Position numbers and translations under genes: made by a program | Shown: piece by piece, positions 3,275 to 60,010 of the stretch | Layout: every line of letters starts with the position of its first letter | How positions within the stretch are numbered: the first letter of the stretch is position 1 | IMG/VR virus record: IMGVR_UViG_3300023082_000009 | Span: 30,880 to 94,879 of that record | DNA: 64,000 nucleotides | Reading direction: 5' to 3' (one strand) | Source: a virus | The notes under the pieces: generated by a model | Databases searched by the model: none | What the model was told of the DNA's origin: nothing | Seen by the model: only the letters and a program-made list of their open reading frames with translations

Positions 3275-3276
3275 CC

Positions 3277-6501: not shown

Positions 6502-6511
6502 GGACTGAGCA

Positions 6512-9902: not shown

Positions 9903-10456
9903 ACAAGACCCTGGAGCTGGCCGATCACCTCGAACGCACCCCTGCCGACTCCGGGGTGCTTGTTGTCCACGATGCCTTGCGTATGGCTGCCGCCGAGCTG
10001 CGCCGCCTGGACGCGCTGATCAACACACCCGAGACCGAGAACTTCGTCGAAGGCATCCGCCTGGAAGCCGCACACCAGGAGCAGCGCTGGGGCGCGTCGC
10101 ACGATGACGGTAAGGGTCCGCAGGACTGGTACTGGCTCGTCGGCCACCTCGCAGGCAAGGCCCTCATGTCCTTCGTTACGGGCGACATCGAGAAGGCCAA
10201 ACACCACGTCATCACAACAGCTGCGGCGCTGGCCAACTGGCACCGCAAACTCTGTGGGAGCGGCACCATGCGTCCAGGCATCGCACCACCAGAGCCGGAG
10301 AAGACCGAGGAGTACCAGCAGGGCTTCAAGGCTTACCAGGAAGGCCGCACCCCTTGCGCCAACCCCTACCTGTCCACCAACCAGTTCTGGGCCAGCGGCT
10401 CTTGGGCTCGCGGCTTCCGCGCCGCCGCTCTCAAAGACACAAAGGAGCATGGCTAA
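9899..10456 (+). CDS. Phage protein with RMF/CrpP-like C-terminal segment
   Basis: 185 aa, overlapping the previous stop (ATGA). The middle (WGASHDDGKGPQDWYW, LAGKAL, ALANWHRKL) resembles a conserved phage protein of unknown function. The last ~40 residues (YQQGFKAYQEG, CANPY, WASGSWARGF) match the spacing of ribosome modulation factor and CrpP-like proteins: a GxxAxxxG helix, a Pro-Tyr turn, then WxxGWxxG. Whether it acts on ribosomes is unknown. The next gene starts on its stop (TAATG). Confidence 0.6.
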   Translation: MNKTLELADHLERTPADSGVLVVHDALRMAAAELRRLDALINTPETENFVEGIRLEAAHQEQRWGASHDDGKGPQDWYWLVGHLAGKALMSFVTGDIEKAKHHVITTAAALANWHRKLCGSGTMRPGIAPPEPEKTEEYQQGFKAYQEGRTPCANPYLSTNQFWASGSWARGFRAAALKDTKEHG

Positions 10457-21014: not shown

Positions 21015-21607
21015 AATACCTCCCTTGGATTGTTTGCTCCATCATCGCCCTGGCCTACCCCTTCGCCGGGTACCTGCCAGCCCTCGTACCTGGGACGGAC
21101 TGGGGCCTCGTAGGCGTCCTGGCTGCACCGCTCCGGCATGCGACCCTTCTACACCTCGCGGTGAATCTGTTACCCTTGGCCTACCTCCTCAGCCTGATGC
21201 GCAACGACCCGCCTGCCCGTGTGATCATGGGCCTGCTGACCATCGTTGTAGTGGGAGGTATGTGGGTGTGGTTCTGGGGTCGACTCGGTATCCACGAAGG
21301 GGCAAGCGGCCTCACCCTCGGCGTGCTGGCAATGCTGGCGATGCGCACTGACTACCGATCCGTACTATCCGTTGCAGCCCTGGTGGGCACCGGCATCGCC
21401 CTTGAGTATGTGAACATACCCGAGGCGTCCTGGGAGACCCACCTGGGTGGCTTCGTGGCTGGAGCCTACTACGGGATCATCACACTGAACTGGAAGAGCA
21501 AGCGGGAGATGGACCATGACGACGAATCGAGTAGTGCGCAGGCTACGCCATGCCCGGCCAAGTGCCGAAGTGACAGCCGACCACATTACCCTGGTCCCGG
21601 TCGATAA
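21011..21607 (+). CDS. Rhomboid-family intramembrane serine protease
   Basis: 198 aa, about six hydrophobic segments. The rhomboid signatures appear in order and spacing: H43-xxxx-H48-xxx-N52 (RHATLLHLAVN), the serine motif GASG with S99, and THLGGFVAGAYYG with H144, matching GlpG H145/H150/N154, S201 and H254. It is therefore predicted to cut membrane proteins with an S99-H144 dyad. The soluble C-terminal 30 residues overlap the next gene by 92 bp. Rhomboids are rare in phages. Possible targets are host membrane proteins or the phage's own small membrane proteins. Confidence 0.8.
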   Translation: MKYLPWIVCSIIALAYPFAGYLPALVPGTDWGLVGVLAAPLRHATLLHLAVNLLPLAYLLSLMRNDPPARVIMGLLTIVVVGGMWVWFWGRLGIHEGASGLTLGVLAMLAMRTDYRSVLSVAALVGTGIALEYVNIPEASWETHLGGFVAGAYYGIITLNWKSKREMDHDDESSSAQATPCPAKCRSDSRPHYPGPGR

Positions 21608-23072
21608 GCTGACCCCCGACAATAAGAACCCCCGCAAGGCGGACCAAGCCCGGTCCGCTCTGCTGCTCCTCTCGCTCAAGAAGTTGAGCTTCCTCATGCC
21701 GCTGTTCCGTCAAAGGTCCAGCGGCTTGTTGCTGTCTGGCCACCAGCGCCTCACCCAGTCGAAGATCCTGGGCCTGGATGCGGTGCCGGTGGTAGACGTG
21801 GATGTCGAGGACAGCGAGGTGATGAACATCAACCTCCTGTTCAACCGACTGACCAACGACTTCAACGCGTTCGACACGGGAGCCCAGGTCCAGGAGCGCC
21901 TGGACATGAAGCAGGTGCTTGCGCTGCTGGAGGCCCTACCGGACGCCGAGGGTCACTACGCCCTGGGCTGCACCGTGGAACCGATCCGGCAGTTCGCTCG
22001 GGCGGTGGGTGATCAGTACGACAAGAAGGCCGCAGTCACAGCCGGTGCCTTTACCCGTATGAATATCCGCATCCCTCTCGTCGTCAGCGAGTCCGGCAAG
22101 GTGGTCAATGGCGTCAACCGGATGTTCGCCGCGCTCGACCGTGGTATCGAAGAGTGGCCGGTAGTCCGGGTGCCCGACGACATCGCCGAGGTTGCAGCCG
22201 TGGTGCTGAACTACCTGTCCATGGACTTCTCCGTCGACGACGATTTCAAGAACCTGCTGCGCTCCTCTGCGTTCCGCCGCGTGTCGAACAACCGGGGCAC
22301 CGTAGGCAAGACCTACCGCTTCTGGGCCAACGGCTGCCGCTCGCTCCTGGATCGCGACAGCTACTCGCCGGAGTATTGGTCGAACTTCCGCCAGCTGCAC
22401 GGCAACTCGATCCTGGACTTCGGGGCGGGCCTCGGGAAGGTGGCGCCCTACCTCCTGACCAAGGGCTTCGACGCTCACGACTTCGAGCCGTACCGCGTAG
22501 ACCCAGACATGAATGCCGCCGAGCCCTCGCGCACCTACAGCAGGGAGCAGGCCAAGCGATTCCTCAAGGCCATCGAGAACCCCGAGCAGCGCTTCGACAG
22601 CATCTTCATGTCTGCCGTGATGAACTCGATCCCGTTCCCGGAAGACCGGCTCATGGTGCTGGCGATTGTCCATGCGCTGTGTGCCCGTGAAACCGTGGTC
22701 TACGGAACCTGCCGCGACATGTCCGACTTTGACTACGAGTACGGCGGCGTGCGCAACGGCAACTACTTCGTCTGGGATACCGAGCCGGGCGTTCGCCTGG
22801 GCGACGTGTCGAGCTGCCCCAAGCTCCAGAAGTTCATGACCCAGGAAGAGGCTCGCGGGTACTTCGAGCGCTTCTGGACCACTATCGAGTTCTGGAAGGG
22901 TGGCAACGTGTTCTACTTCAAGCTCTCCGATCCGAAGGGCGTGAACATCAAGGCCCTGGGCCAGTCGCTAGACTTCGAGTTCAACCTGCCGTTTCGGGAC
23001 GGCAAGGGCTTGGATCTGGTCAAGGAAGCCAAGGCTGCATTCAGCAAGCGTCTGCGGAGGCAAGTTCCATGA
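21516..23072 (+). CDS. ParB-like / SAM-methyltransferase fusion
   Basis: 518 aa. N-terminal basic peptide TNRVVRRLRHAR, then a ParB-like domain (~25-150) with LLLSGHQRLTQ (SGHQRL, 74-79). The C-terminal half is a class I SAM-dependent methyltransferase: ILDFGAGLG (299-307), an acidic strand-2 end (DFEPY) and FDSIFMSAVMN. I see no DPPY/NPPY motif, so amino-methylation of DNA is not directly indicated. ParB-methyltransferase fusions are typical of phage and mobile-element DNA-modification loci. ATG 21516 follows GGGAGATGG inside the rhomboid gene. Confidence 0.75.
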   Translation: MTTNRVVRRLRHARPSAEVTADHITLVPVDKLTPDNKNPRKADQARSALLLLSLKKLSFLMPLFRQRSSGLLLSGHQRLTQSKILGLDAVPVVDVDVEDSEVMNINLLFNRLTNDFNAFDTGAQVQERLDMKQVLALLEALPDAEGHYALGCTVEPIRQFARAVGDQYDKKAAVTAGAFTRMNIRIPLVVSESGKVVNGVNRMFAALDRGIEEWPVVRVPDDIAEVAAVVLNYLSMDFSVDDDFKNLLRSSAFRRVSNNRGTVGKTYRFWANGCRSLLDRDSYSPEYWSNFRQLHGNSILDFGAGLGKVAPYLLTKGFDAHDFEPYRVDPDMNAAEPSRTYSREQAKRFLKAIENPEQRFDSIFMSAVMNSIPFPEDRLMVLAIVHALCARETVVYGTCRDMSDFDYEYGGVRNGNYFVWDTEPGVRLGDVSSCPKLQKFMTQEEARGYFERFWTTIEFWKGGNVFYFKLSDPKGVNIKALGQSLDFEFNLPFRDGKGLDLVKEAKAAFSKRLRRQVP

Positions 23073-35515: not shown

Positions 35516-36007
35516 ATGATCCTCGCAGCCACCGGCCACCGGCCTGACAAACTGGGCGGCTACAGTGTACCCCTCGCCACTCTCCGTACTGACCTAGCAA
35601 TGGGTTGGATGGACATCAGGCAAATCGACAAAGGTATCACCGGCATGGCCCTGGGCTGGGACCAGGACTTCGCTCTCGCGTGCTACGAACTCGGAATCCC
35701 CTACATCGCAGCCATACCCTTCGAGGGCCAGGAGAAAGCGTGGCCTGCTGCATCGCAGCGCGTATATCGCTGGCTGATGAACCGTGCCGATGAGGTCGTC
35801 ATCGTCTCGCCCGGCGTGTACTCCCCGGCCAAGATGCTCAAGCGAAACATCTGGATGGTCGACGAGTGCAATCAATTGCTCGCGCTGTACGACGGCAGCC
35901 AGGGCGGGACGGCCCACTGCCTGCGGTATGCCCGCGAATGGCAGAAGGAAGTGACCAACCTATGGCACGTCTATCAAGCCGAGCTGCAAGATGACATTCC
36001 GTTTTGA
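35516..36007 (+). CDS. SLOG-fold (DUF1273/TIGR00725-like) protein
   Basis: 163 aa, ATG after AAGGAGCTAGC. LAATGHRPDKLGGY at the start is the hallmark of a SLOG-related phage family; ALGWDQDFALACYE and ADEVVIVSPG follow. SLOG proteins bind nucleotides or NAD-type ligands; the phage role is unknown. A palindromic repeat lies inside the gene. Downstream begins the 34-bp repeat array. Confidence 0.7.
   Translation: MILAATGHRPDKLGGYSVPLATLRTDLAMGWMDIRQIDKGITGMALGWDQDFALACYELGIPYIAAIPFEGQEKAWPAASQRVYRWLMNRADEVVIVSPGVYSPAKMLKRNIWMVDECNQLLALYDGSQGGTAHCLRYAREWQKEVTNLWHVYQAELQDDIPF
35867..35880. repeat. Palindromic repeat, copy 9 (one mismatch), in coding sequence
   Basis: TGCAATCAATTGCT, in the SLOG-type gene; one mismatch in the last base of the arm. 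Confidence 0.7.
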
Positions 36008-36009
36008 TT

Positions 36010-36111
36010 TGTGTGGGCATGTGGTCTCCCCTACTAACCATTCTGTGTGGGCATGTGGTTTGCTTAACTAATGGTTCTGTGTGGGCATGTGGTTTCCCCA
36101 ACTAGTGGATC
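36010..36111 (+). repeat. Three 34-bp tandem repeats
   Basis: Units start at 36010, 36044 and 36078, each opening with TGTGTGGGCATGTGGT and then varying. They begin 3 bp after the SLOG-type stop and run straight into CTGGTG-rich sequence. Iteron-like; no spacers, so not a CRISPR array. Confidence 0.85.
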
Positions 36112-36281
36112 ACTGGTGAACCAGTGTCCGGCCCGTGTCGTCGGTGGTCTCTGGTGTCGGGCCGGTGGCGCGTCTCTGGTCAGTGGACCGCTGGTCGGTG
36201 GCCGTCAGTGTTGGCGCGGTCTGTGCTAGCCGCCTCGGTGGCGTCCTGGCCTCTGTCCGGCCCGCCCTGGCCCTGTGTTGC

Positions 36282-36297
36282 GTGCAATTGATTGCAC
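36282..36297. repeat. Palindromic repeat, copy 10 (exact, TG centre)
   Basis: GTGCAATTGATTGCAC, about 30 bp before the CTCTACAGAG leader of the gene at 36348. Confidence 0.9.
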
Positions 36298-36326
36298 CAG
36301 GGTGCAGGGTTCGCACACCACACACG

Positions 36327-36339
36327 CACTCTACAGAGG
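36327..36339 (+). promoter_or_regulatory. Palindromic RBS leader, variant CTCTACAGAG
   Basis: CACTCTACAGAGG just before the ATG at 36348. Differs from the common CACCCTAAAGGGG in paired positions, so the palindrome is preserved. Confidence 0.65.
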
Positions 36340-36347
36340 CACACACC

Positions 36348-36665
36348 ATGCAAACCAATACCCGCCGCCGCGCTCCCCTGGATAACGTCGCCCAGGCCAC
36401 CGCGCCCGCTACCCGTACCGTCTGCCACCTCAACGGCGCCGCCCTGGGCGTTCGCGTACATTCCAACGGCTGGGCGGCCACCTATGACGGCAAAGACTGC
36501 GCCCTGGCTGACATCCCTAGCCAATACCACGGCATGATTAAAGCCACCGTCAAAGGCTTGGCCTACGACCTGGGGTACTTCACCTACGCCCCGCCTAGCG
36601 TGCCGTGCGCCGGTTGGGACCGGGTAGAGTGGATAGACCACGTAACCTTTAACTTTCCCATCTGA
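36348..36665 (+). CDS. Small early-type protein (105 aa)
   Basis: ATG after the palindromic leader. Basic N-terminal third (MQTNTRRRAPLDN), then a beta-rich, aromatic domain (YDLGYFTYAPPSV, WDRVEWIDHVTFNF). No family recognised. First of the eight genes with the co-varying leader. Confidence 0.65.
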   Translation: MQTNTRRRAPLDNVAQATAPATRTVCHLNGAALGVRVHSNGWAATYDGKDCALADIPSQYHGMIKATVKGLAYDLGYFTYAPPSVPCAGWDRVEWIDHVTFNFPI

Positions 36666-36675
36666 CCTGTGGTAT

Positions 36676-36703
36676 TTGCATAACTCCAGGCAGCGTCTAT
36701 AGT
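36676..36703 (+). promoter_or_regulatory. Sigma70-type promoter, 16-bp spacer
   Basis: TTGCAT (36676-36681), 16 bp, TATAGT (36698-36703). Drives the gene at 36742, whose leader carries CACCCTAAAGGGGAT. Confidence 0.7.
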
Positions 36704-36720
36704 TCACGTACACACCACGT

Positions 36721-36735
36721 CACCCTAAAGGGGAT
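36721..36735 (+). promoter_or_regulatory. Palindromic RBS leader CCCTAAAGGG
   Basis: CACCCTAAAGGGGAT, ending seven bases before ATG 36742 and containing the ribosome-binding site. Confidence 0.8.
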
Positions 36736-36741
36736 ACAGCA

Positions 36742-37845
36742 ATGAACAGCCACCAAATCCAAATCGGCGCCCAGGTTTTCAACTTCTCCGTAGTCATTGA
36801 AAAAGACGACGACCACGGCGCGCCCTGGGTAGAGGAAGACGGCCACGGCCCGGTAAGCGAGTGGACCACCCGCGCCAAGCAAGCCGGGGAACTTGTCTTG
36901 AACGACGACAAGCGCGGTCACCGTCGCTACTATGACTTTGCCGAGGCGTGCAAAAAGGCCCTGGCCGAAGGTTGGGACGACACCCCCAGCAAGATCGAAG
37001 GCGAGCCAGAGACCAAGCGTCAGCAGGCAGCACGGGCGGCCCGCGCAGACTTTGAACACTTGCAAGCATGGTGCAATGAGGAATGGTATTACACCTTTAT
37101 CACCGTGACCCTGCTCGACCGCGACGGCAACCCCACCACCCACACCGACAGCATCGGCGGCACCGACAACGACTACGCCGAAGAGCAAGCGCGCCTTATG
37201 TGCGATGAGCTGGCGAGTCAGGTAGACGCCAGCGGCCCAACGTCGGAAGAGTTGAACCTCCTCCCCTTGTCCCGCCTGGATGAGCTGCATAACGAGCTTC
37301 GCGACGTGCACCAGGGCGAGAGCGACGACGACACGGACTTCGACGTATGGGTCCAAGACATGGCCGATAACAACCGAGGCACCTACCAAGCCGCCGCCCT
37401 GGAATACTTGCGCCTTAGCAACGATGAGCAGCACGCGGAATCCGTAGCCATTGCCGCCCAGGTAAACGGGGATGAACACTTGGCCGAAGATTGCACCCTC
37501 ATGGCTAAGTTGTTGGAAGCCAGCCAGGACGACAACGCCAAGTTAAAGGCCGCCCTGGCCGTAGCCCTGGGCTCCCTGGAATCCCTCCTTACCCTGGCCG
37601 ACAAGCCGGACGTTAAAGCCTACGGCGCCGCCCGCGTGCATGCCCTGGCTGTCGTCAAAGGTTGCCGCCTGGACAACCCGCCGCCACTCCGTTGGGACGG
37701 TTGCCACGGGTTCAGCATTGCCACCACCGGCCAACGCTTCGCGACTATCGCTAACGCCTTCAAGGGCAGCGGCGAACAGGCCGACGACGGTACCGCCCTT
37801 GTACACGCACTGGCCCGCCTGGGCGCGGTTGCCCTGACCTATTGA
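36742..37845 (+). CDS. Unknown 367-aa acidic protein
   Basis: Strong promoter and palindromic leader. Acidic, Ala- and Asp-rich, mostly helical; the region ~100-190 has repeated charged helices, and the N terminus has beta strands (FSVVIEKDDDHG). No domain recognised. Likely a highly expressed early protein. Confidence 0.7.
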   Translation: MNSHQIQIGAQVFNFSVVIEKDDDHGAPWVEEDGHGPVSEWTTRAKQAGELVLNDDKRGHRRYYDFAEACKKALAEGWDDTPSKIEGEPETKRQQAARAARADFEHLQAWCNEEWYYTFITVTLLDRDGNPTTHTDSIGGTDNDYAEEQARLMCDELASQVDASGPTSEELNLLPLSRLDELHNELRDVHQGESDDDTDFDVWVQDMADNNRGTYQAAALEYLRLSNDEQHAESVAIAAQVNGDEHLAEDCTLMAKLLEASQDDNAKLKAALAVALGSLESLLTLADKPDVKAYGAARVHALAVVKGCRLDNPPPLRWDGCHGFSIATTGQRFATIANAFKGSGEQADDGTALVHALARLGAVALTY

Positions 37846-37854
37846 GGTGCTGAC

Positions 37855-38082
37855 ATGGCCGCTATGTACATCATTGAAGCGCGTACACCAGATGGGGCGA
37901 TTAACCCCGCCCCAGCGGCACAGCCACCGTTTAACGTGATGAGCGAGCGCCAGTTGTTCGAGTATCGAAACGACAACGTGACCGGGGCGGGTTGGCTCTA
38001 TGAGGATCAACCCGGCCACCTGGAAGCGGTCAAAGAATGGTTTGCAAGTAACGGCTGGCATGTCCGGCCTAAGACGTGGTAG
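37855..38082 (+). CDS. Unknown 75-aa protein
   Basis: ATG after GAGGTGCTGAC. Soluble, Pro- and Ala-rich at the N terminus, ending in VKEWFASNGWHVRPKTW. No family recognised. Confidence 0.6.
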   Translation: MAAMYIIEARTPDGAINPAPAAQPPFNVMSERQLFEYRNDNVTGAGWLYEDQPGHLEAVKEWFASNGWHVRPKTW

Positions 38083-38094
38083 GGAGTAGACGTT

Positions 38095-38346
38095 ATGTCA
38101 GTTACAGACGTTGTGCATGTTGTGCGCGGTAAGTGCAAAGTTACCGGGCGGCAATACAAGTTGGTCCGCAAACAAATCTTACCCGCTCATGAGGTACGCG
38201 GAGAGGATAAGTTTGAAAGCAAGTTTGACGCTATTTTTGTTTGCATCCAGGCGGCGCGAGCTTGGCGGTTCTGTTCGCCTACCGTGATTTTCAATGTCGA
38301 CACTATCGCTACACCTTTGCCGGGTCCGCCCCAGGTGATAACGTGA
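38095..38346 (+). CDS. Unknown 83-aa protein
   Basis: ATG after GGGAG. Basic N-terminal half with lysine and valine strands (VRGKCKVTGRQYKLVRKQIL); C-terminal part contains Cys and hydrophobic residues. Overlaps the next GTG by 4 bp (GTGA). Confidence 0.55.
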   Translation: MSVTDVVHVVRGKCKVTGRQYKLVRKQILPAHEVRGEDKFESKFDAIFVCIQAARAWRFCSPTVIFNVDTIATPLPGPPQVIT

Positions 38347-38555
38347 CGGCCTTAGAAGCGGCGGCGAAGTTCTGGTATGCGTTTAAGTTGTTGGGCCTTA
38401 TCATACTTGCCGCGTTCGTTTACCACCTGGACAACAACACAAGGGCCAAGTATGAAAACCCTACTCGACAAGCCGCGCTTCCAACTAAAGCCGGACGTAT
38501 CAGCCCGGCAATATGCGAACTGCTCGAACTTACTAGAGGTTGTGATAAACAATAG
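38343..38555 (+). CDS. Small membrane protein (70 aa), GTG start
   Basis: GTG 38343 overlaps the previous stop and follows AGGTGAT. One transmembrane helix (~15-35), then a polar tail. Its last ~100 bp overlap the gene at 38452 in another frame, so at least one may be wrong or both are short-lived; both have plausible signals. Confidence 0.45.
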   Translation: MTALEAAAKFWYAFKLLGLIILAAFVYHLDNNTRAKYENPTRQAALPTKAGRISPAICELLELTRGCDKQ

Positions 38556-38757
38556 AGCGCGTACCGTCGCGGTCCAAGTCCCGGCGGTCCTGTTCCATCT
38601 AATGCAGTTCCTCAAGGTGCCGGTAGGGGCGGACGTATCCCTCTACCTTGACCAGGAAGGCGCCGTAATGGTTTTCGGGTTGTGCGTAAACGGCACGGAA
38701 ATACACGACCTTTGGACCTATACAAAAGCCAGCTTGCCGCCGTTCCTGGCGAGCTGA
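38452..38757 (+). CDS. Unknown 101-aa protein
   Basis: ATG after AAGGGCCAAG. Mixed alpha/beta (VAVQVPAVLFHLMQFLKVPVGADVSLYLD). It overlaps the small membrane gene by 104 bp but has the better amino-acid profile for a soluble protein. Confidence 0.6.
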   Translation: MKTLLDKPRFQLKPDVSARQYANCSNLLEVVINNRARTVAVQVPAVLFHLMQFLKVPVGADVSLYLDQEGAVMVFGLCVNGTEIHDLWTYTKASLPPFLAS

Positions 38758-38783
38758 TAACCCGTCAATCGAGGGGCAAAACC

Positions 38784-39143
38784 ATGGATAACATCCAGCC
38801 GAAGCCGGTTAAAGAGTTCACCAGGGCGGACCCCTGCACTAAGGTGCATCTGTCTAATTGCTTCACCCAGGGCGGCAAATACGTACCCCGTGCCGTGGTC
38901 GAGGCACGCGGGGAAATTGGCGTTAACGCTATCAAGTACCTGCTAAAGAACGGTTACGCCCTGGCTTATGAAAGTGTTGGAATTGATTGGTGGAGGCTTA
39001 CGCCCCAGGGCGAAAAGTGGTTAGCTGATGGCCTTGCGCGGCACCTGGAGTTACACCCAGCAGACGCCCGCAAAGTGACCAGCACACGCACCGAGGCACG
39101 CGCTACACCGAGAATCATCCGCCGCCCCCGCAAAGGGCAATAA
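38784..39143 (+). CDS. Unknown 119-aa protein with basic tail
   Basis: ATG after GAGGGGC. The fold looks winged-helix-like (GEIGVNAIKYLLKNGYALAY). It ends PRIIRRPRKGQ, another case of the terminal arginine-rich peptide, possibly a DNA-binding or targeting tail. Confidence 0.65.
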   Translation: MDNIQPKPVKEFTRADPCTKVHLSNCFTQGGKYVPRAVVEARGEIGVNAIKYLLKNGYALAYESVGIDWWRLTPQGEKWLADGLARHLELHPADARKVTSTRTEARATPRIIRRPRKGQ

Positions 39144-39208
39144 TCATTAATGTATGAAAGGCCGTTTTTGCTGCAAAACCTTGCAAGAAATTGGCCTTTT
39201 GCAAAGCG

Positions 39209-39224
39209 GTGCAATCAATTGCAC
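39209..39224. repeat. Palindromic repeat, copy 11 (exact, CA centre)
   Basis: GTGCAATCAATTGCAC, immediately before GGGAG of the gene at 39238. The preceding ~60 bp also hold an AAAGGCC/GGCCTTT inverted repeat. Confidence 0.9.
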
Positions 39225-39237
39225 GGGAGTGGTAACC

Positions 39238-39495
39238 ATGGAACGTACAGAGAATGGCCGCGCTATCCTCAAGACTGAGACCGGGCGCAAAGTGGTAGCC
39301 CTGGATATTGTCGCGAAACTGTCAGGTACTGGCGCGAGTCGCGTTATTGCAATCTTCAAAGCACTAGCCCAGGTTGCGGAACATTCCGGCCTCACAGTTG
39401 AGGAACTTGTCCGCCTGGAGAACATGCCGACCGCCGCGCCGGACGAAGAACGCGCCCAGGGCACGAACGACTATTACGACGAACTGCACCAGTGA
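39238..39495 (+). CDS. Small unknown protein (85 aa)
   Basis: ATG after GGGAGTGGTAACC, right behind a palindromic repeat. N-terminal half basic (ERTENGRAILKTETGRKVV), then two helices with a HTH-like rhythm (SRVIAIFKALAQVAEHSGLT). A small DNA-binding protein is possible but not proven. Confidence 0.6.
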   Translation: MERTENGRAILKTETGRKVVALDIVAKLSGTGASRVIAIFKALAQVAEHSGLTVEELVRLENMPTAAPDEERAQGTNDYYDELHQ

Positions 39496-39499
39496 TGGC

Positions 39500-39527
39500 T
39501 TGCACTATTCGCCCAGGCGACTAGTAT
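39500..39527 (+). promoter_or_regulatory. Sigma70-type promoter, 16-bp spacer
   Basis: TTGCAC (39500-39505), 16 bp, TAGTAT (39522-39527), ahead of the gene at 39578 with its CCCTAAAGGG leader. Confidence 0.7.
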
Positions 39528-39558
39528 TCACCCCATGCAAGACACACCAGTCACTAGC

Positions 39559-39572
39559 CACCCTAAAGGGGG
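39559..39572 (+). promoter_or_regulatory. Palindromic RBS leader CCCTAAAGGG
   Basis: CACCCTAAAGGGGG, just before ATG 39578. Confidence 0.75.
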
Positions 39573-39577
39573 TTGTC

Positions 39578-40249
39578 ATGATCGTTAAGAAGTTCACCGC
39601 AGCCATGCACCAGGACCACGGCACTTTGGGTTGGGTCATGGATACCATGCCCCATTTTGACCCCACCACCGGCATGGGCGTAGCCCATGATTGCATGGAA
39701 CATCTGACCCGCCGCGCCGGTTTCGAGGGCGAGATGGAAGCCTTCGGCGTAGCGCTGTACATCCGTCACCAGGGCGGGTACTGGCAGCAGCAGTTGACCC
39801 GCAACGCATCCAAGGGCGCCGGGACTTGGGCCTACAACACGTCGTACGAAATTGCGGAGTTCCTGGCGCGTGATACTGCCTTGAACGTGGAGAAGGCGCC
39901 GCGCACTGCGCTACTTGACGATGAGGACGCCGAAGAACAAATAGCCATGATGCAACTGCGCGCCCTGAATGACTTCTATAGCGATGTTGCGGAGTGCTAT
40001 GGCCTGGAAGATACACCCCGCGAAGTTATTGTTGAGTGCCTGGAGCGCGCCGCCGTTTGGGTCCGTCGCGGATGGCTCAACGCCGAGCGCAAGTATGGCG
40101 CATTCCCTTATGACCTTTGCTACATGTTCAAACAAATTGAAGAGGAGGTAGACGCACTTAACATTATCGAAGGCGACACACTTACTGTAATGTTTAACCG
40201 CGATAACACGGACTATTCCGTAACTCACAAATCCCTGTACAACTACTAA
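39578..40249 (+). CDS. Unknown 223-aa protein
   Basis: Promoter plus palindromic leader. Acidic, with several aromatic residues and His/Cys. The pattern of helices in ~20-130 (DHGTLGWVMDTM, HDCMEHLTRRAG) suggests a globular enzyme or binding protein, but no motif was identified. Confidence 0.65.
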   Translation: MIVKKFTAAMHQDHGTLGWVMDTMPHFDPTTGMGVAHDCMEHLTRRAGFEGEMEAFGVALYIRHQGGYWQQQLTRNASKGAGTWAYNTSYEIAEFLARDTALNVEKAPRTALLDDEDAEEQIAMMQLRALNDFYSDVAECYGLEDTPREVIVECLERAAVWVRRGWLNAERKYGAFPYDLCYMFKQIEEEVDALNIIEGDTLTVMFNRDNTDYSVTHKSLYNY

Positions 40250-40261
40250 GGTAATTCAATC

Positions 40262-40561
40262 ATGAAAGGTTCCCTCATTCGTTCCGCCCTGGGCTTGGCT
40301 GCTTTGTTGTCGGTTGGCATTAACAACCGTTTCACCGCTGACCCGTTCGGCAAGAAGTTGGCCCCGGCTGTTAAAACTCGGTCCTGGACCACTACCAAGG
40401 GCGGCAAAGTAAAAACCGTGTTCCCTGGCCAAACCCCGGCGCAGAAAAAGGCCGCCCTGGCCCAGGCCGAAGAGAAGCGCGCCCGCCGCTCCCTGACAGC
40501 CGCCCGCAATGCCCGCAACAGCGCCGAAGGCTACGCACGCACAGCCGGGCGCACCTTCTAA
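40262..40561 (+). CDS. Small basic protein with N-terminal hydrophobic segment
   Basis: 99 aa. N-terminal ~20 residues (KGSLIRSALGLAALLSVG) could be a membrane anchor or signal; the rest is Lys/Arg/Ala-rich, ending in an alanine-rich helix. Function unknown. Confidence 0.6.
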   Translation: MKGSLIRSALGLAALLSVGINNRFTADPFGKKLAPAVKTRSWTTTKGGKVKTVFPGQTPAQKKAALAQAEEKRARRSLTAARNARNSAEGYARTAGRTF

Positions 40562-40580
40562 CCCTTCACCAGGACGAACG

Positions 40581-40606
40581 ACTAGCCCGCCATGCGCGGG
40601 CTTAGT
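40581..40606 (+). terminator. Hairpin between genes (terminator-like, no U-tail)
   Basis: AGCCCGC-CATGC-GCGGGCT with flanking ACT/AGT; no T-run follows, so termination is uncertain. It lies ahead of the leader at 40621. Confidence 0.45.
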
Positions 40607-40620
40607 CAGTACCAGAACAC

Positions 40621-40634
40621 TACCCTAAAGGGAG
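40621..40634 (+). promoter_or_regulatory. Palindromic RBS leader CCCTAAAGGG
   Basis: TACCCTAAAGGGAG, ahead of ATG 40643. Confidence 0.7.
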
Positions 40635-40642
40635 TTGCCGCC

Positions 40643-41038
40643 ATGACATGCGCAAGCGTCACCAATCTGCAAAACATCAAAGACGTAACCGAGGCAGACG
40701 CCCGGTTAATCCGTAAGGTCTGGTCGCTCATGGGCGCCACCCAGACACGCGCCTACCTGCTGCGCCCGGCTATCAACTTGAACGGGCGGTTTAGCTCCCT
40801 GGCTGATACCGCTAGAGGGTCCGCCAACCTCAAACAGGGCGCTATTGACATCATCCTGGGGACGCACGGGGTTGAATACCTGGGGCAGCGCAAGGGCAAC
40901 CGGGAACACGTCTACTACTGCAATGCAGGCGACACCTACGCCACCACGGTACTTTTTGACGGCCTGCATTTGCGGGTAGGTGACATCGGCGGCCTGATAG
41001 AGCGCAATCTGATCAGCGAGCGCCACTCTGATTTTTGA
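40643..41038 (+). CDS. Unknown 131-aa protein
   Basis: Leader-bearing gene. Soluble; N-terminal Cys, a helical middle, then strands (YCNAGDTYATTVLFDGL). No family recognised. Confidence 0.65.
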   Translation: MTCASVTNLQNIKDVTEADARLIRKVWSLMGATQTRAYLLRPAINLNGRFSSLADTARGSANLKQGAIDIILGTHGVEYLGQRKGNREHVYYCNAGDTYATTVLFDGLHLRVGDIGGLIERNLISERHSDF

Positions 41039-41055
41039 CCATTCGTCGGTGGTAA

Positions 41056-41083
41056 TGGCGTCTTTTCAGAAGGCGCCTATACT
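41056..41083 (+). promoter_or_regulatory. Possible promoter (good -10, weak -35)
   Basis: TATACT (41078-41083) with a weak TGGCGT (41056-41061) at 16 bp, ahead of the gene at 41124 and its CCCTAAAGGG leader. Confidence 0.5.
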
Positions 41084-41102
41084 TCGTTTACACCTTCCAA
41101 AT

Positions 41103-41117
41103 CACCCTAAAGGGGAT
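41103..41117 (+). promoter_or_regulatory. Palindromic RBS leader CCCTAAAGGG
   Basis: CACCCTAAAGGGGAT, six bases before ATG 41124. Confidence 0.8.
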
Positions 41118-41123
41118 TGCATC

Positions 41124-41813
41124 ATGGCACTTTCAAAAGAACAGTATTTCAACATGGGCCACCGCGACGCCCAGACCACCCCGCCTAACCGTAACGGCGC
41201 CCTCATTGCTTCCATGTCCTGGCAGGGCCGCGCCTACGCCGAAGGCTACAGCGCTGGGGAACTTCACCAGGAAGCAAACGCCATTCGCGCCCAGGCTTGC
41301 CCGGCATGCGCGGCGGGTATCCCCTTTCAACAGTCTGTCGATTGCGTGCAATCAATTGCACCGGGTGCAGCACGCCGGGCGGACCGCATCCAGGCACTGA
41401 CACGCGGCTACATCTCCGCCATGCTCTGGACCACTACCGACGACGACGGCAACGAATGCCAGGACATGGAAGTAACGCCAGAGGGCCGCGCCGAAGTCCT
41501 GGCAATCGTGACCGCGTTCTATGACGCCAACCATGTCGACCTGGGCGCGTACGTTGATTTGCGAATGGCGGACGTGGGCAGCACCTACCGAGTTCACGCC
41601 AGCCAGCAAACAGAGGCGTACGGGTTTGCAGGCCACGACCTTTGGCTGACTAGCCAGGGCCACGGGGTTGGGTTTTGGGACCGTGGGCACGGGCGGGTAG
41701 GCGAACGCCTCACAAAGGCCGCCAAGGCGTTTCAGGGTTGCGACGCGTATACAACAGACGACGGCTATGTCGACTTGTCTATCCCCTATCACGCTTCCTG
41801 GAAAAAGGTCTAA
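41124..41813 (+). CDS. Unknown 229-aa protein
   Basis: Leader-bearing gene. The N terminus (YFNMGHRDA, then WQGRAYAEGY) loosely recalls the RMF/CrpP-type pattern, much weaker than in the gene at 9899. The C-terminal ~80 residues are beta-rich (WDRGHGRVGERL). An exact palindromic repeat lies inside the gene. Confidence 0.6.
   Translation: MALSKEQYFNMGHRDAQTTPPNRNGALIASMSWQGRAYAEGYSAGELHQEANAIRAQACPACAAGIPFQQSVDCVQSIAPGAARRADRIQALTRGYISAMLWTTTDDDGNECQDMEVTPEGRAEVLAIVTAFYDANHVDLGAYVDLRMADVGSTYRVHASQQTEAYGFAGHDLWLTSQGHGVGFWDRGHGRVGERLTKAAKAFQGCDAYTTDDGYVDLSIPYHASWKKV
41346..41361. repeat. Palindromic repeat, copy 12 (exact, CA centre), in coding sequence
   Basis: GTGCAATCAATTGCAC within the gene at 41124. 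Confidence 0.9.
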
Positions 41814-41817
41814 CGCC

Positions 41818-42141
41818 ATGAGCATCAACAACACAATCCAAGTAACCGCAATCGAACGCGCCATTGAAGACCTGGAGCGTTTGACCCATGACGCAATCGC
41901 CAGCCTTCGCGGGAACGAGAAACTCAACAAAAAGGTAATTGAGCGGGCGGTTCTGGTAGGCAACGCCCAGGCAGCCGGGGAACTGGTATACGCGGCGCTG
42001 ATCGCTTGCAAGACGCCTGTACGCCCTGACTCGGTTGAGCTGGTAGTCGACACCAAGGGCTTTAACCACGACCGCGTAACCGAGAAGGCCAGCGCCGCCG
42101 CTACGCGTACCTTTGTGCGCCGCATCAAAGACAACTATTAA
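41818..42141 (+). CDS. Unknown 107-aa protein
   Basis: ATG 41818, 4 bp after the previous stop. Helical, charged at both ends, with basic C terminus (RTFVRRIKDNY). No family recognised. Confidence 0.65.
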   Translation: MSINNTIQVTAIERAIEDLERLTHDAIASLRGNEKLNKKVIERAVLVGNAQAAGELVYAALIACKTPVRPDSVELVVDTKGFNHDRVTEKASAAATRTFVRRIKDNY

Positions 42142-42146
42142 TCGCG

Positions 42147-42162
42147 GTGCAATCAATTGCAC
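42147..42162. repeat. Palindromic repeat, copy 13 (exact, CA centre)
   Basis: GTGCAATCAATTGCAC, between the previous stop and the AGGGAG of the 38-aa gene at 42178. Confidence 0.9.
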
Positions 42163-42177
42163 CAGGGAGCAGCAGAC

Positions 42178-42294
42178 ATGATTGGTAAAGTGAAGATCAG
42201 CAGAAAGGCATTCTACGCGGCGGGCGGTTTCAGCAACCCCGCACTATCCAGGAAACAACGTGGTAGCGGTTGGGCGTATTACCAATCCGTTTAA
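42178..42294 (+). CDS. Micro-gene encoding a 38-aa protein
   Basis: ATG after AGGGAGCAGCAGAC, 39 codons. MIGKVKISRKAFY-type basic N terminus, then FSNPALSRKQRG and WAYYQ, a pattern I have seen in short phage early proteins. Below the usual length threshold of automatic calling but with clean signals. Function unknown. Confidence 0.6.
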   Translation: MIGKVKISRKAFYAAGGFSNPALSRKQRGSGWAYYQSV

Positions 42295-42308
42295 CCAGGG
42301 GCGATACC

Positions 42309-42578
42309 ATGAAACGCACAACGGCCTATCGCACTTCCTACGCTGTCGAGTTGACAGTTAAGCAGTTCACCAAAGTAGAAGAGCGAGACGACAAAGCAAA
42401 AGACTTTGGTTTGCTTTCGATCCTCTCTAACCTGGGCGCCCACTCTATCGAGTACAACGGCCACTTTGGCGCGAGCATCTTCTACACGCTCGACACTGAG
42501 ACCGACTCGCCAGAACTTCGGGCGGAGATAGAGACCGCGATAGTAGATTATGCAAATGGCAAACGCCGAACGTTCTAA
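42309..42578 (+). CDS. Unknown 89-aa protein
   Basis: ATG after CAGGGGCGATACC. Mixed alpha/beta (YAVELTVKQFTKVEE; IFYTLDTETD); soluble. Terminator follows. No family recognised. Confidence 0.65.
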   Translation: MKRTTAYRTSYAVELTVKQFTKVEERDDKAKDFGLLSILSNLGAHSIEYNGHFGASIFYTLDTETDSPELRAEIETAIVDYANGKRRTF

Positions 42579-42593
42579 CAGCAACACACACAT

Positions 42594-42630
42594 AAACGCC
42601 CTGGGCTAATCACCTGGGGCGTTTGTTTTC
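42594..42630 (+). terminator. Rho-independent terminator
   Basis: AAACGCCC / GGGCGTTT stem with a 15-base loop, then GTTTTC. Confidence 0.75.
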
Positions 42631-43104
42631 GGGCGGAACAATGCACTACAACCATAGGGACACTACCAGGAACAGCAAATAGGCAAAGTGCAGTTTGGGC
42701 CAATGATTCCGGGCGGGTGGAAGCAATCAATCCTATATAGACCAATAGAGAATCCCCTAGACCATCCCATAGAGAAGTATCCGTGTTGCAGCATGATCAA
42801 TCATCTCTGTTACTTCCTGAAAATGTTATCTGTGTTTAGCCAGTGAAATAGTTCCCGCAAAAATTCTCTGGTGGAGTCAAGTCGAATTCATCACTGAACT
42901 TGTGTCGATCACTGCTGGTGTATACCTGTGTCTTGTTCACTGGTGCTGCTGGTGGCTACTGGTGAGTTAACTGGAGCTGTCATGAGCTAATCACTGCTGC
43001 TGGTGAACAATGCCACTGCTGGTGATCACTGGTGTCCGCCCGTTCAGTGAATCCAGGATCGGTGGACCGCTGGTCGCCAGGATCTGTGTTTACGCAAAAT
43101 CGGT

Positions 43105-43132
43105 TTGCAAGGTTTGTGTATTCGTCTACTCT
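43105..43132 (+). promoter_or_regulatory. Sigma70-type promoter, 16-bp spacer
   Basis: TTGCAA (43105-43110), 16 bp, TACTCT (43127-43132), ahead of the gene at 43181. Confidence 0.65.
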
Positions 43133-43159
43133 CTCAATACACAACGCATCACCCACCCG

Positions 43160-43174
43160 GCACTCTAAAGAGGT
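43160..43174 (+). promoter_or_regulatory. Palindromic RBS leader, variant CTCTAAAGAG
   Basis: GCACTCTAAAGAGGT, ahead of ATG 43181. Paired change relative to CCCTAAAGGG. Confidence 0.7.
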
Positions 43175-43180
43175 CACACC

Positions 43181-43609
43181 ATGAAAACCGTAGCCACCTA
43201 CCCAGCCTTCGACGTAGTAGACCTGGAAACCGAAGTTATCCATTTGTCCGCCGAGGTCTGCAATGATCGCCTGGGCTCAGGTATCAAGTTCTGCACCGCG
43301 TACGAAAGCCGCCGTCACGGTACCCTCTACCGCGAAGTGTCGCCCAACTGCATCGACTACTATTGCGCTGACATCTACACCACCCCGGAAGAGATGGCCG
43401 CCCAGATTGCCAAGTCAGCAGAACGCAAAGACCCTCGGTTCTGGTTTAACAATTGCGGCGCCTGCATCACCGCCCAGGCAATGCCGCATTACACGATGTT
43501 TCTCATCCAGGAAGGGCAGTTGGTCACTATGGCCGGTCACACACTGCGCGTACGTATCGTGGGCGACTATATCCGCCTGGACGTGGTAGAGCAGGCAGCC
43601 GCCGCGTAA
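43181..43609 (+). CDS. Unknown 142-aa protein
   Basis: Strong promoter and leader. Beta-rich with several cysteines (NDRLGSGIKFCTAY; WFNNCGACITAQAM). No metal motif of a known family is clear. Palindromic repeat and terminator follow. Confidence 0.65.
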   Translation: MKTVATYPAFDVVDLETEVIHLSAEVCNDRLGSGIKFCTAYESRRHGTLYREVSPNCIDYYCADIYTTPEEMAAQIAKSAERKDPRFWFNNCGACITAQAMPHYTMFLIQEGQLVTMAGHTLRVRIVGDYIRLDVVEQAAAA

Positions 43610-43623
43610 TGCAATCAATTGCA
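43610..43623. repeat. Palindromic repeat, copy 14 (exact core, CA centre)
   Basis: TGCAATCAATTGCA, beginning right after the TAA of the gene at 43181 and seven bases before the terminator. Confidence 0.9.
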
Positions 43624-43630
43624 CCGCCTA

Positions 43631-43658
43631 GGGCGCCCAGGTTGGCGCCCTTTCTTTT
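43631..43658 (+). terminator. Rho-independent terminator
   Basis: GGGCGCC / GGCGCCC with a six-base loop, then TTTCTTTT. Confidence 0.9.
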
Positions 43659-43701
43659 GCCTACCGTTTGTCGGGCGCTGTCAAAATAGTGCATTTAGAG
43701 G

Positions 43702-43729
43702 TGGCAAGGATCGGTGGTAGTGCTAATCT
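43702..43729 (+). promoter_or_regulatory. Sigma70-type promoter, 16-bp spacer
   Basis: TGGCAA (43702-43707), 16 bp, TAATCT (43724-43729), ahead of the gene at 43784. Confidence 0.55.
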
Positions 43730-43763
43730 ACAGATACAGGGAATGCACAACGCAAACCCAAGT

Positions 43764-43777
43764 CACCCTAAAGGGGA
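43764..43777 (+). promoter_or_regulatory. Palindromic RBS leader CCCTAAAGGG
   Basis: CACCCTAAAGGGGA, just before ATG 43784. Confidence 0.8.
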
Positions 43778-43783
43778 CACACC

Positions 43784-44263
43784 ATGAACGCACAAGTCAT
43801 CCACGCCGAAGCAACCAAGCCAGCCAAGAAAGCCGCCGCTAAGCCTGTAGCCAAAGCAGCCACTACCAAGAAGCCAGCCGCCAAGGCTAAGACCGCCCCT
43901 AAAGCCAAGGCGCCTAAAGGTATCAAATGCATGGTTGCCAACCGCCCAGGTAGCGGCGTGCTGCTCTTCGCATACACCGAGGCTGCATTGCAGTTGTTGG
44001 GTATGTACGAAGGCGCCGAAGTAGAGAAGGCCGTCCTGGCTAAGGTCATGGGCCTGACTGCCATCAGCTACCACACCGCTAAGGCTACCCTGGTACGCCT
44101 CGACAACGGGCGGTACGCACTGACCAAAGCAGGTAAAGCGTTCTTCGCCGAACGTGCTACTAAGGCCATTGCCGCCGATCTCAAAGGCTGGACTAAGGTT
44201 CTGTCGACCGGCAAGGCAGACGGGGTTGTCGTCAAGAACCCTGATATGTTGACCGCGATCTAA
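43784..44263 (+). CDS. Histone H1-like tail plus winged-helix-like domain (159 aa)
   Basis: Residues ~8-48 are a Lys/Ala/Pro repeat (AKKAAAKPVAKAATTKK), like H1 tails and the AlgP-type proteins of pseudomonads. The remainder has a helix-turn-helix rhythm (VEKAVLAKVMGLTAISYHTAKATLVRL-type) followed by a Tyr/Lys-rich wing. Probably a DNA-binding protein; role unknown. Confidence 0.6.
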   Translation: MNAQVIHAEATKPAKKAAAKPVAKAATTKKPAAKAKTAPKAKAPKGIKCMVANRPGSGVLLFAYTEAALQLLGMYEGAEVEKAVLAKVMGLTAISYHTAKATLVRLDNGRYALTKAGKAFFAERATKAIAADLKGWTKVLSTGKADGVVVKNPDMLTAI

Positions 44264-44281
44264 CCCACCTCACACACGCAC

Positions 44282-44306
44282 GGGGCGGCGATATACAGAC
44301 CGCCCC
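44282..44306 (+). terminator. Hairpin GGGGCGG/CCGCCCC (terminator-like, no U-tail)
   Basis: Seven-base GC stem with an 11-base loop between two leader-bearing genes; no T-run, so it may instead be a regulatory hairpin. Confidence 0.4.
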
Positions 44307-44309
44307 ACA

Positions 44310-44324
44310 CTACCCTAAAGGGAG
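44310..44324 (+). promoter_or_regulatory. Palindromic RBS leader CCCTAAAGGG
   Basis: CTACCCTAAAGGGAG, ahead of ATG 44333. Confidence 0.75.
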
Positions 44325-44332
44325 TAACAGAC

Positions 44333-44614
44333 ATGAACGCACTTCACACCACCACCATTCTCGCCCAGGCTCAGGCCGTACCATTTACCCAGGCCGAAGC
44401 CTATGCAGCCGAACGCGGTATCATGGGCCGCTACAACCGTCAGTATCTGCGCAGCCTGTTGCGTGCCCGTCGCGTGATGCGCCGCAACCTGACCCAGGCA
44501 ATCGCGGGCGGTCACCTACTCCAGGCAGTAGAGCAAGCCACCCTTATGCATAGCTTCGGAGTACAGGCCGTTGTATGCATCCGCCGCAATGCACGTCACA
44601 CCCTGGTAGCCTGA
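44333..44614 (+). CDS. Small basic helical protein (93 aa)
   Basis: Last gene with the palindromic leader. Helical, rich in arginine (YLRSLLRARRVMRRNL), ending with a hydrophobic helix. Possibly nucleic-acid-binding; no family recognised. Confidence 0.65.
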   Translation: MNALHTTTILAQAQAVPFTQAEAYAAERGIMGRYNRQYLRSLLRARRVMRRNLTQAIAGGHLLQAVEQATLMHSFGVQAVVCIRRNARHTLVA

Positions 44615-44628
44615 TGCAATTGATTGCA
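44615..44628. repeat. Palindromic repeat, copy 15 (exact core, TG centre)
   Basis: TGCAATTGATTGCA, directly after the previous stop; opens the non-coding gap. Confidence 0.9.
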
Positions 44629-45094
44629 CGAGATTGGTTCGCTCTTTTCTCAGTGAAGAATCGGGCGGACCAATCCATTACCCCTCTATGCATATGCCAT
44701 ACCACCCTATAGAAAAATCCACCATAGCTTTTCCGGTGTCGCTAAATGGACCCGCGCCGCAGAGTTTCTCTACGTACTGATTTCAAAGTGACCCTACCTA
44801 CTTTCTTCGTTTTCCATCTGGCCTACGACACGTCATGTTCAATCAAGCTCTTTGCATGTCTCTCTCATGACTCTCACATATCAAAACGCTTTTCAGATCG
44901 GATTTTTTGCTGATGCAATCAATTGCACTGACATGTATGGGAAATTTTTGAATTCAATCAGTGTCCAGGTTTGCGAGGGCAGGATCGGTCATGATCACAT
45001 CAGTGTTCAGCATGCCTTCGTCATGAACAGGTATGATCGGCACAACGGGGCAAACCATTCAATGCCCGAAAAATCGACGTTGAGGATCAAGATC
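44629..45094 (+). other. Non-coding gap with a second palindromic repeat
   Basis: About 465 bp, visibly AT-richer than the genes. Runs of T and A, and CCCTATAGAAAAATCC similar to a stretch near 42770. An exact repeat lies at 44914. No supported gene or clear promoter; the downstream genes use different leaders (GGAGAGTCAAAGTC-type). Confidence 0.6.
44914..44927. repeat. Palindromic repeat, copy 16 (exact core, CA centre)
   Basis: TGCAATCAATTGCA, inside the non-coding gap. Confidence 0.9.
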
Positions 45095-45307
45095 ATGTCT
45101 ACTCAAGAAGTCACCCTGTCGCTCGCGGCGCGGATCGCCATCGAACACAACGTGCGCCAGCAGATCGCAGATAACGTCATGCTGCTACAGAGTGCTGGCA
45201 AGTTCGACGCCGGTTGCGTGATTACCCATGCTGGCTTGCAGGCCGCAGCTACGGAGTTCATCAGCGACACCGTTGCCCAGGTCTACCAGGAAATCCTCCA
45301 GGCCTGA
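45095..45307 (+). CDS. Small protein (70 aa), start of the late small-gene run
   Basis: ATG 45095 chosen: the leader GTTGAGGATCAAGATC parallels that of the next gene (GTTGGAGAGTCAAAGTC). An in-frame ATG upstream at 44852 runs through the repeat and lacks signals. Helical; no family recognised. Confidence 0.65.
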   Translation: MSTQEVTLSLAARIAIEHNVRQQIADNVMLLQSAGKFDAGCVITHAGLQAAATEFISDTVAQVYQEILQA

Positions 45308-45345
45308 ATCCGTCATCAAAAAATTCGCGTTGGAGAGTCAAAGTC

Positions 45346-45687
45346 ATGAGAACGAAGTCACGGGTAGTCACCCTTGCGCAGCTCGCCCTACTCCCTCGGG
45401 GTACCCTGGTCGCGTGCGTAAAGTTCGACGACACCTACGGTCAGGTGCAGCACGACTGCCAGGGCATTGTCCAGGTAGGCCCGATACACGCCGTGCACTC
45501 CGTAGATGCGGACTACGTGGTCCTTCGCCCTGTCGTGCCCGACATCCGTTGGCATGAAGGCCGAGTCGAGGAATCCTACGAGCCCACGCACATCGGGAGG
45601 GTCAACTTCTGCGATCACCGCTTCATCGTCTACCCGACGCTCGAAGCCATGCTGCGCAACAGCACCCGTACCACCTGGAGACCGTGA
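45346..45687 (+). CDS. Unknown 113-aa protein
   Basis: ATG after GGAGAG. Beta-rich core (VVTLAQLALLPRGTLVACV, YVVLRPVVPDIRW) with a basic N terminus. No family recognised; next gene overlaps (TGATG). Confidence 0.65.
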   Translation: MRTKSRVVTLAQLALLPRGTLVACVKFDDTYGQVQHDCQGIVQVGPIHAVHSVDADYVVLRPVVPDIRWHEGRVEESYEPTHIGRVNFCDHRFIVYPTLEAMLRNSTRTTWRP

Positions 45688-59290: not shown

Positions 59291-60010
59291 ATGACCGCCA
59301 ATCAATCACTGAACCTGGAGGAGGAGATCGCCAAGTTCCTGGCCAAGGGCGGTCAGGTCCAGGAGATCGAATCCAACCCATACCAGCCTCCCAGAATCCG
59401 CCAGGACGCCAGGGAGACGCGCAAGCCGCCACCGCGAAGACCCCGTAAGGTAGCCAAGGAAAACGGTCTATACGTCCTTACAGAGGACGCCAGAGCGTTG
59501 GCCAATAAATTCAAGCCAGTCATCAAAAAGTTGCTTGACGCCGGAATGAAGCTCACGGATATTCGCCGCGAAGTGGGCATAGACTGGAAGCCCGTAAGGG
59601 TGGCTGCGCACGAAGTAGGGTACCGACCCTTCAACCAACAAGAGCAGTACAAACGCGCCATGGCGCTATGGGCGCCGGTTGTTGAAGAGGTCGTGCAAGG
59701 CATCCTGGAGGGTGTGACACTTCGAGCCACCTGCCTGCGCCTGCGCGTCAGCGAGCCCAACGTACTCATCTACTGGGGCCGTTATATCGAGAACAACCCG
59801 CTCACCCCGGAACTCAGGAAAGGTCGCGGCTGTTACGCCCGTTGCTCGGACGAGGATATGCGCCTTGCGCTACAGCTCTACATAGAGCTGCATGGCTGCG
59901 GCATGCAACGAGCAGCCAAGGCCCTCGGGGTGGGGTGGCACAGAGCCGACCGCCTGTTGGCCGACCGCAAACCATACAAACCCCAGTGTAGGCCCACCCG
60001 GCAGTTGTAG
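59291..60010 (+). CDS. HTH DNA-binding protein (probable), 239 aa
   Basis: N-terminal disordered, basic region (PRIRQDARETRKPPPRR). Three helix-turn-helix-like units follow: KLTDIRREVGIDWKPVRVAAH, LRATCLRLRVSEPNV and GMQRAAKALGVGWHRADRLL. Looks like a homeodomain-like or recombinase-type DNA-binding protein; possible regulator of the last third of the window. Confidence 0.6.
   Translation: MTANQSLNLEEEIAKFLAKGGQVQEIESNPYQPPRIRQDARETRKPPPRRPRKVAKENGLYVLTEDARALANKFKPVIKKLLDAGMKLTDIRREVGIDWKPVRVAAHEVGYRPFNQQEQYKRAMALWAPVVEEVVQGILEGVTLRATCLRLRVSEPNVLIYWGRYIENNPLTPELRKGRGCYARCSDEDMRLALQLYIELHGCGMQRAAKALGVGWHRADRLLADRKPYKPQCRPTRQL

Follow-up and report, generated by a model that had tools for sequence, protein, structure and literature searches.

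The DNA analyzed here (hereafter the window) is a 64,000-nucleotide (nt) stretch, bases 30,880-94,879 of the 94,879-base virus record IMGVR_UViG_3300023082_000009, and it contains a single 8-kb cluster to which eight leaders, each folding into the same small RNA hairpin ahead of a gene, are confined. By sequence comparison the source phage is a distant relative of Samunavirus, a group of phages infecting Pseudomonas aeruginosa, because its family-A DNA polymerase shares 64% identity with Samunavirus counterparts (SM1, PaMx31, PA_L9, UF_RH6, and others), about 45 of its predicted reading frames have matches in SM1 with their order mostly kept, and the phage records searched at the DNA level with the cluster gave no match. 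Each leader is a hairpin of 16-18 nt made up of 3 base pairs (bp), a bulged A, another 3 bp, and a loop of 3-5 nt with a final A, and its 3′ arm holds the Shine-Dalgarno (SD) sequence, 6-10 nt ahead of the start codon. An initial annotation had placed leaders before eight genes, and all were found where it put them, on the + strand. It was also right that the SD sequence lies inside a palindrome, but these 10 bp make up no more than the upper half of the hairpin; folding adds three pairs below it, with A2 as the bulge, which had been overlooked. These lower three pairs form at every site of the record except that at 36327, where two do. Six leaders had been given as CACCCTAAAGGGG, which holds for four of them, whereas those before 40643 and 44333 read TACCCTAAAGGGA. 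The paired change from CCC/GGG to CTC/GAG was correctly described, but that from TAAA to TACA, also taken for a paired change, falls in the unpaired loop. With at most one mismatch, CACYCTAMAGRGG has 6 matches against 0.44 expected (6 being reached in 0 of 100 shuffles), and its exact matches across the whole record number 6 on the forward strand, all in the cluster, with 0 on the reverse strand and 0 in the control.

All eight leaders and their genes lie on the + strand. The first leader (36325..36341; cgc.A.CUC.UACA.GAG.gca), whose outermost pair, C-A, is unformed, scores 18.7 bits with model R1 and precedes a gene for a protein of 105 amino acids (aa) that belongs to no family (36348..36665). 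The second (36719..36735; guc.A.CCC.UAAA.GGG.gau) heads a 367-aa gene (36742..37845) whose N-terminus matches phrog_11104, of unknown function, and whose Nankokuvirus homologue has no such leader. The third (39557..39573; gcc.A.CCC.UAAA.GGG.ggu), in which pairing extends to 39555-39575, stands before a 223-aa gene of phrog_7111 (39578..40249); the orthologues in SM1 (gp082) and in a further phage contig, IMGVR_UViG_3300046474_000239 (G001; 104,448 bases), are also hairpin-led. Similarly, the 131-aa gene at 40643..41038, behind the fourth leader (40619..40635; acu.A.CCC.UAAA.GGG.agu), has hairpin-led orthologues in SM1 (gp087) and G001, with letters that differ in most pairs. The fifth leader (41101..41117; auc.A.CCC.UAAA.GGG.gau), to which an A-U fourth pair is added at 41100-41118, precedes a 229-aa gene of phrog_1915, likewise of unknown function (41124..41813). 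The sixth (43159..43175; ggc.A.CUC.UAAA.GAG.guc) is followed by a 142-aa gene of no family (43181..43609). The seventh (43762..43778; guc.A.CCC.UAAA.GGG.gac; 26.8 bits) precedes a gene for 159 aa (43784..44263), with a Lys/Ala-rich N-terminus and a predicted helical, winged-helix-like domain, and the eighth (44309..44325; acu.A.CCC.UAAA.GGG.agu) a gene for 93 aa (44333..44614). Just upstream of the cluster, at window positions 36010-36090, TGTGTGGGCATGTGGT stands in three direct copies separated by short spacers; CACTGGT-rich DNA follows, and similar CTGGTG-rich DNA lies at 42890-43070.

The same hairpin is present at 9-10 sites per genome in the Samunavirus phages SM1, PA_L9, and UF_RH6, always in one early-type cluster. 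Nine genes in the early-type region of SM1 are preceded by it, and there both the loops (AGA, AUGA, AGGA) and the lower stems (e.g., guu/aac and acu/ggu) differ from those of the source record; UF_RH6 has an additional site with a CUC/GAG stem and the five-base loop AGAUA. The third lineage, G001, came from a pattern scan and carries twelve sites within 11 kb, again in one early-type cluster; at two of these sites the upper stem is UCC/GGA. A covariance model trained on sites with 4-nt loops returned only the 8 known sites from the source record and 12 from G001, in one cluster each; it also recovered the 3-nt-loop sites of SM1, PA_L9, and UF_RH6, on which it had not been trained, again clustered. 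The genes at 39578, 40643, and 43784 have hairpin-led orthologues in all three lineages, although the letters differ. For example, the three stems before the 40643 gene and its orthologues are acu/agu with CCC/GGG, guc/gac with UCC/GGA, and acu/ggu with CCC/GGG.

Other searches returned nothing comparable. Nankokuvirus Ab03, which has the 36742 gene without the leader, gave two weak model matches elsewhere in its genome. No hairpin cluster was found in Litunavirus LIT1 and five other contigs sharing the 39578 family, nor in three contigs sharing the 40643 family, and cellular genomes scanned with the 39578 family yielded no relative. The 4227 covariance models of Rfam gave no match up to E = 1 in the region 36000-45400, and no title or abstract on such leaders appeared among the open papers returned by the literature searches, those on Samunavirus included. 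Scanning viral contigs for the bare core pattern gave an overwhelming number of chance matches. A hairpin-like match in contig L141, inside a coding frame, was dropped as chance, as were other isolated matches without clusters. The leader GTCACCCAGAGGGGAC, which precedes the ATG of a HicB-like antitoxin (identified by eye) in several isolate-genome viral contigs, Pseudomonas-type prophages (L175, L179, L183, L184, L188, and L190), can adopt a hairpin-like fold; its third pair is lost in other copies (L177, L181, and L182), and the resemblance is probably due to chance.

The case for the hairpin rests above all on covariation. To be collected, a site had to show the upper stem, the bulged A, a loop with a final A, and a start codon at a suitable distance, while its lower pairs were left free; the invariance of the bulged A, of the final loop A, and of the upper-stem set is therefore partly by construction, while that of the lower stem is not. 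Four raw sites were excluded from the statistics (two lay in coding frames or outside the clusters, one was truncated at a record end, and one had an ambiguous register), and the arms were aligned without their loops, MAFFT having failed to align the variable loops. Lower pairs 1, 2, and 3 are formed at 33, 33, and 32 of the 33 distinct sites (98 of 99 cells), pair 4, the next outward, at just 4 of 33; with the register slid by one position, only 10-38% of cells remain paired. When 3′ arms were permuted within lineages, the observed pairing was never reached in 20,000 trials, all lineages together (P = 5e-5). The 26 distinct arms are 99.4% paired, with both-side changes at five of the six pairs (25 cells against 3.1 in shuffles, and 0 of 500 shuffles), and 11 further pair types occur across the three lineages. 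Sites of the same genome may share ancestry, so these cell counts are not counts of events; the separate lineages and the variety of pair types guard against this in part. In the upper stem the 3′ arm, which is the SD core, reads GGG, GAG, or GGA, each a usable form of the SD sequence, and the opposite arm correspondingly CCC, CUC, or UCC. The bulged A is on the 5′ side at 33 of 33 sites and 3 bp from the loop at all of them; when the requirement for this A was dropped, few additional upper stems came up at a suitable distance from a start codon, and none of these followed the cluster-and-leader pattern. These comparisons give good support to a hairpin whose structure was kept while its letters changed, and an RNA hairpin, one of the two possibilities first proposed, is strongly supported by the compensatory changes, the paired lower stem, and the orthologues in three lineages.

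Several properties point to an element that acts as RNA. Eight distinct lower stems are imperfect, seven of them by G-U wobble alone (P ~2e-5 for random mismatches), and the hairpin is strictly oriented toward its gene. It is also restricted to particular genes of the cluster. All eight hairpin-led genes follow intergenic gaps of at least 60 nt, against two of the nine other genes (P = 0.002), and in SM1 the corresponding figures are 9/9 and 3/14 (P = 0.0003); because of these gaps, hairpin-led genes are likely the first genes of short transcription units. The family-A polymerase gene itself is not hairpin-led. By eye, -10-like hexamers can be read ~10-26 nt upstream of many hairpins. Four promoters with 16-bp spacers, reported in the initial annotation, were not recovered: a consensus scan gave one sigma-70-like match on the + strand of the cluster (36675), with a spacer of 17. 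At positions 2000-9000 of G001, the -10 hexamers of hairpin-led units (TATGCT, TATTCT, TATAGT) lie directly 3′ of a G+C-rich inverted repeat, an arrangement that looks like an overlapping terminator and promoter of successive units.

We favor, with a probability of roughly 0.55, the reading that the leader is a common translational operator for unit-first genes, bound by an RNA-binding factor that would repress the group together. The hairpin lies near the predicted 5′ end of the mRNA, heading each short transcription unit, and in its free form is only marginally stable, so that ribosomes could open it. A phage- or host-encoded RNA-binding factor recognizing the bulged A, the loop, and the stem would then lock it and, at a certain stage of infection, stop 8-12 genes from being translated, all at once. 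The predicted stability of the core, about -3 to -7 kcal/mol and similar across sites, is close to the most that ribosomes can still unfold. A mask so weak, whose bulge is fixed and whose size is exactly 3+3, looks like a protein site that is locked on demand, and the exact 3+3 bp, together with the bulged A and the final loop A that never vary, suggest that the hairpin is recognized and does more than mask. A trans-acting factor is favored on these grounds; it, the repressing sense of the control, and the timing of the switch are inferred, and the earlier proposal of a regulon switched at translation is plausible. A candidate for an autogenous regulator is the product of the 43784 gene, whose helical, winged-helix-like domain is predicted with moderate confidence; a comparison of the predicted structure with a PDB library gave no significant match. 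The more specific scheme, in which one RNA-binding protein, possibly the 43784 product acting also on its own hairpin, shuts off the first genes of 8-12 early units in an RNA-level regulon, is tentative, its chances falling somewhat below even.

A number of observations weigh against a common operator with a dedicated factor. The hairpin is missing at some orthologues, namely SM1 gp088 (the counterpart of 41124) and the G001 orthologue of 44333 (61% identical), and has therefore been gained and lost. Searches of the phages identified no regulator: CsrA and Hfq homologues are absent from the three phages in profile searches whose positive controls matched, and RegA and levivirus coat profiles had no match in the phages, nor did they match their control genomes. 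Within the predicted leaders the hairpin does not dominate everywhere, with mean pair probabilities of 0.15-0.99 and competing folds at some sites. Finally, a crude measure of SD accessibility did not separate the hairpin genes of SM1 from the rest (P = 0.21), its 5-nt window overlapping the loop at 3-nt-loop sites.

Some of these points sit comfortably with the alternative that the hairpin acts alone, as a ligand-free attenuator, a thermosensor, or a 5′-proximal stabilizer of mRNA that tunes unit-first genes and needs no dedicated factor. The modest stability, alike across sites, and the position near the predicted 5′ end of the mRNA, shortly past the -10-like hexamers read by eye, would both be expected of such an element, and the searches of the phages gave no RNA-binding protein, although for the RegA and levivirus coat profiles the controls did not match. 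Nevertheless, a self-acting stabilizer or attenuator needs neither a fixed bulged A nor exactly 3+3 bp, and the fourth pair is nearly always left unformed (it forms at 4/33 sites); a pure stabilizer would not need the SD sequence inside the hairpin either. We consider this alternative unlikely, if still a serious one.

The other explanations fare worse. That the hairpin is the recognition or cleavage site of an endoribonuclease that processes or inactivates early messages is improbable. Small bulged hairpins at SD sequences could serve as RNase sites, and T4 RegB offers a precedent for a regulator of early messages at the RNA level (PMC3014915). However, no phage-specific nuclease candidate turned up, no search having been aimed at one, and the loop has no conserved GGAG. 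More improbable still is that the leaders are ordinary ribosome-binding sites copied along with duplicated early genes, sharing ancestry without selection on structure. Phages commonly carry several copies of a module made of a promoter, a leader, and a small gene, and many sites have letters in common (GTCACCC...GGGGAT), yet the hairpin-led genes are not recognizable paralogues on reading, letters have changed in pairs in both stems and in three lineages, with UCC/GGA and CGC/GCG among the outcomes, and permutation within lineages does not reproduce the pairing. Least credible is that the palindrome is the DNA operator of a dimeric phage or host repressor, as in the bound dimer first offered beside the hairpin, with a fortuitous SD overlap: the core CCCT-NN-AGGG is dyadic in most sites of the source record and the phage has another kind of genome-wide DNA palindrome, but a dimer needs symmetry and fixed spacing, and no symmetric half-sites at fixed spacing are seen here, the extra A being one-sided, the loop 3, 4, or 5 nt long, the imperfections nearly all G-U wobbles, the strand orientation strict, and the distance to the start codon fixed at 6-10 nt.

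The genome-wide palindrome is a separate feature of the record. It is 14 bp long (TGCAATCAATTGCA / TGCAATTGATTGCA) and present in 22 copies in the 94.9 kb, about one per 4.3 kb and many of them intergenic, whereas composition shuffles had none. Window copies are at 1244, 9541, 18568, 23347, 36283, 39210, 41347, 42148, 43610, 44615, 44914, 51613, 56635, and 59217. The palindrome words occur 9 times in a 14-kb part of G001, and in the 30 copies of SM1 the core has diverged (TGCAAACGCTTGCA and the like). The palindrome resembles a genome-wide binding site, parS- or repressor-like, that may have co-diverged with a phage protein, and a ParB-like protein encoded at 21516-23072 (phrog_5475 and ParB matches; 54-73% identical to SM1 gp052) is a candidate for its reader. 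Elsewhere in the window, a 260-aa frame at 9674-10453 has a C-terminus resembling ribosome modulation factor (RMF; YQQGFKAYQEGRTPCANPYLSTNQFWASGSWARGFRAA), to which a Pfam RMF match probably belongs, and a 239-aa protein at 59291-60007 has a weak, sub-cut-off match to the SutA RNA-polymerase-binding domain.

Among known systems, T4 RegA represses the translation of ~30 mRNAs at initiation regions, its sites being A+U-rich and without RNA structure (PMC3014915). The likeness lies in one phage switching the translation of many early genes; RegA operators are unstructured and A+U-rich, whereas the hairpin described here is G+C-rich, uniform, and covarying. The operator of gp43, the DNA polymerase of T4-type phages, is a 16-18-base hairpin by the ribosome-binding site of the phage, and in RB49 its loop contains UAAA (PMC3014915). 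Hairpin size, the neighborhood of the ribosome-binding site, and UAAA, as in RB49, at most sites of the source record are shared. Conversely, gp43 has one autogenous site per genome, ~40 bases upstream of the start codon, whereas here there are 8-12 sites with the SD sequence in the stem and a bulged A, and the phage's own family-A polymerase gene lacks the hairpin. The coat-protein operators of MS2 and PP7 are likewise formed by a small hairpin at a gene start; its 5′ side has a bulged A, its small loop contains A, and it masks the translation start. The bulged A and the loop are alike in both cases. However, the bulge lies 2 bp from the loop in MS2 and 4 in PP7, as against 3 bp here, and the present sites have loops of 3-5 nt and serve many genes of a double-stranded DNA (dsDNA) phage. 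CsrA/RsmA, a host protein of Pseudomonas, represses through SD hairpins with GGA in the loop; unlike those, only two of 33 loops here contain GGA (the AGGA loop only), and the phages have no CsrA gene. By analogy, the logic would be that of T4 RegA and the anatomy that of gp43 or RNA-phage coat operators, while each of these systems has defining features that are lacking here.

Dispersed, covarying, SD-masking operators serving a group of genes in dsDNA phages would, as far as these comparisons go, be new. The structured translational operators known from dsDNA phages are mainly autogenous and single, and the multi-gene repression by RegA uses unstructured sites. If the proposed operator is real, it would provide a tractable RNA-based regulon with 8-12 matching operators per genome, present also in the cultured Pseudomonas phages SM1, PA_L9, and UF_RH6. 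There would then be a new RNA-protein pair to find, and a set of co-regulated early genes could be annotated as such, some of which may act on the host.

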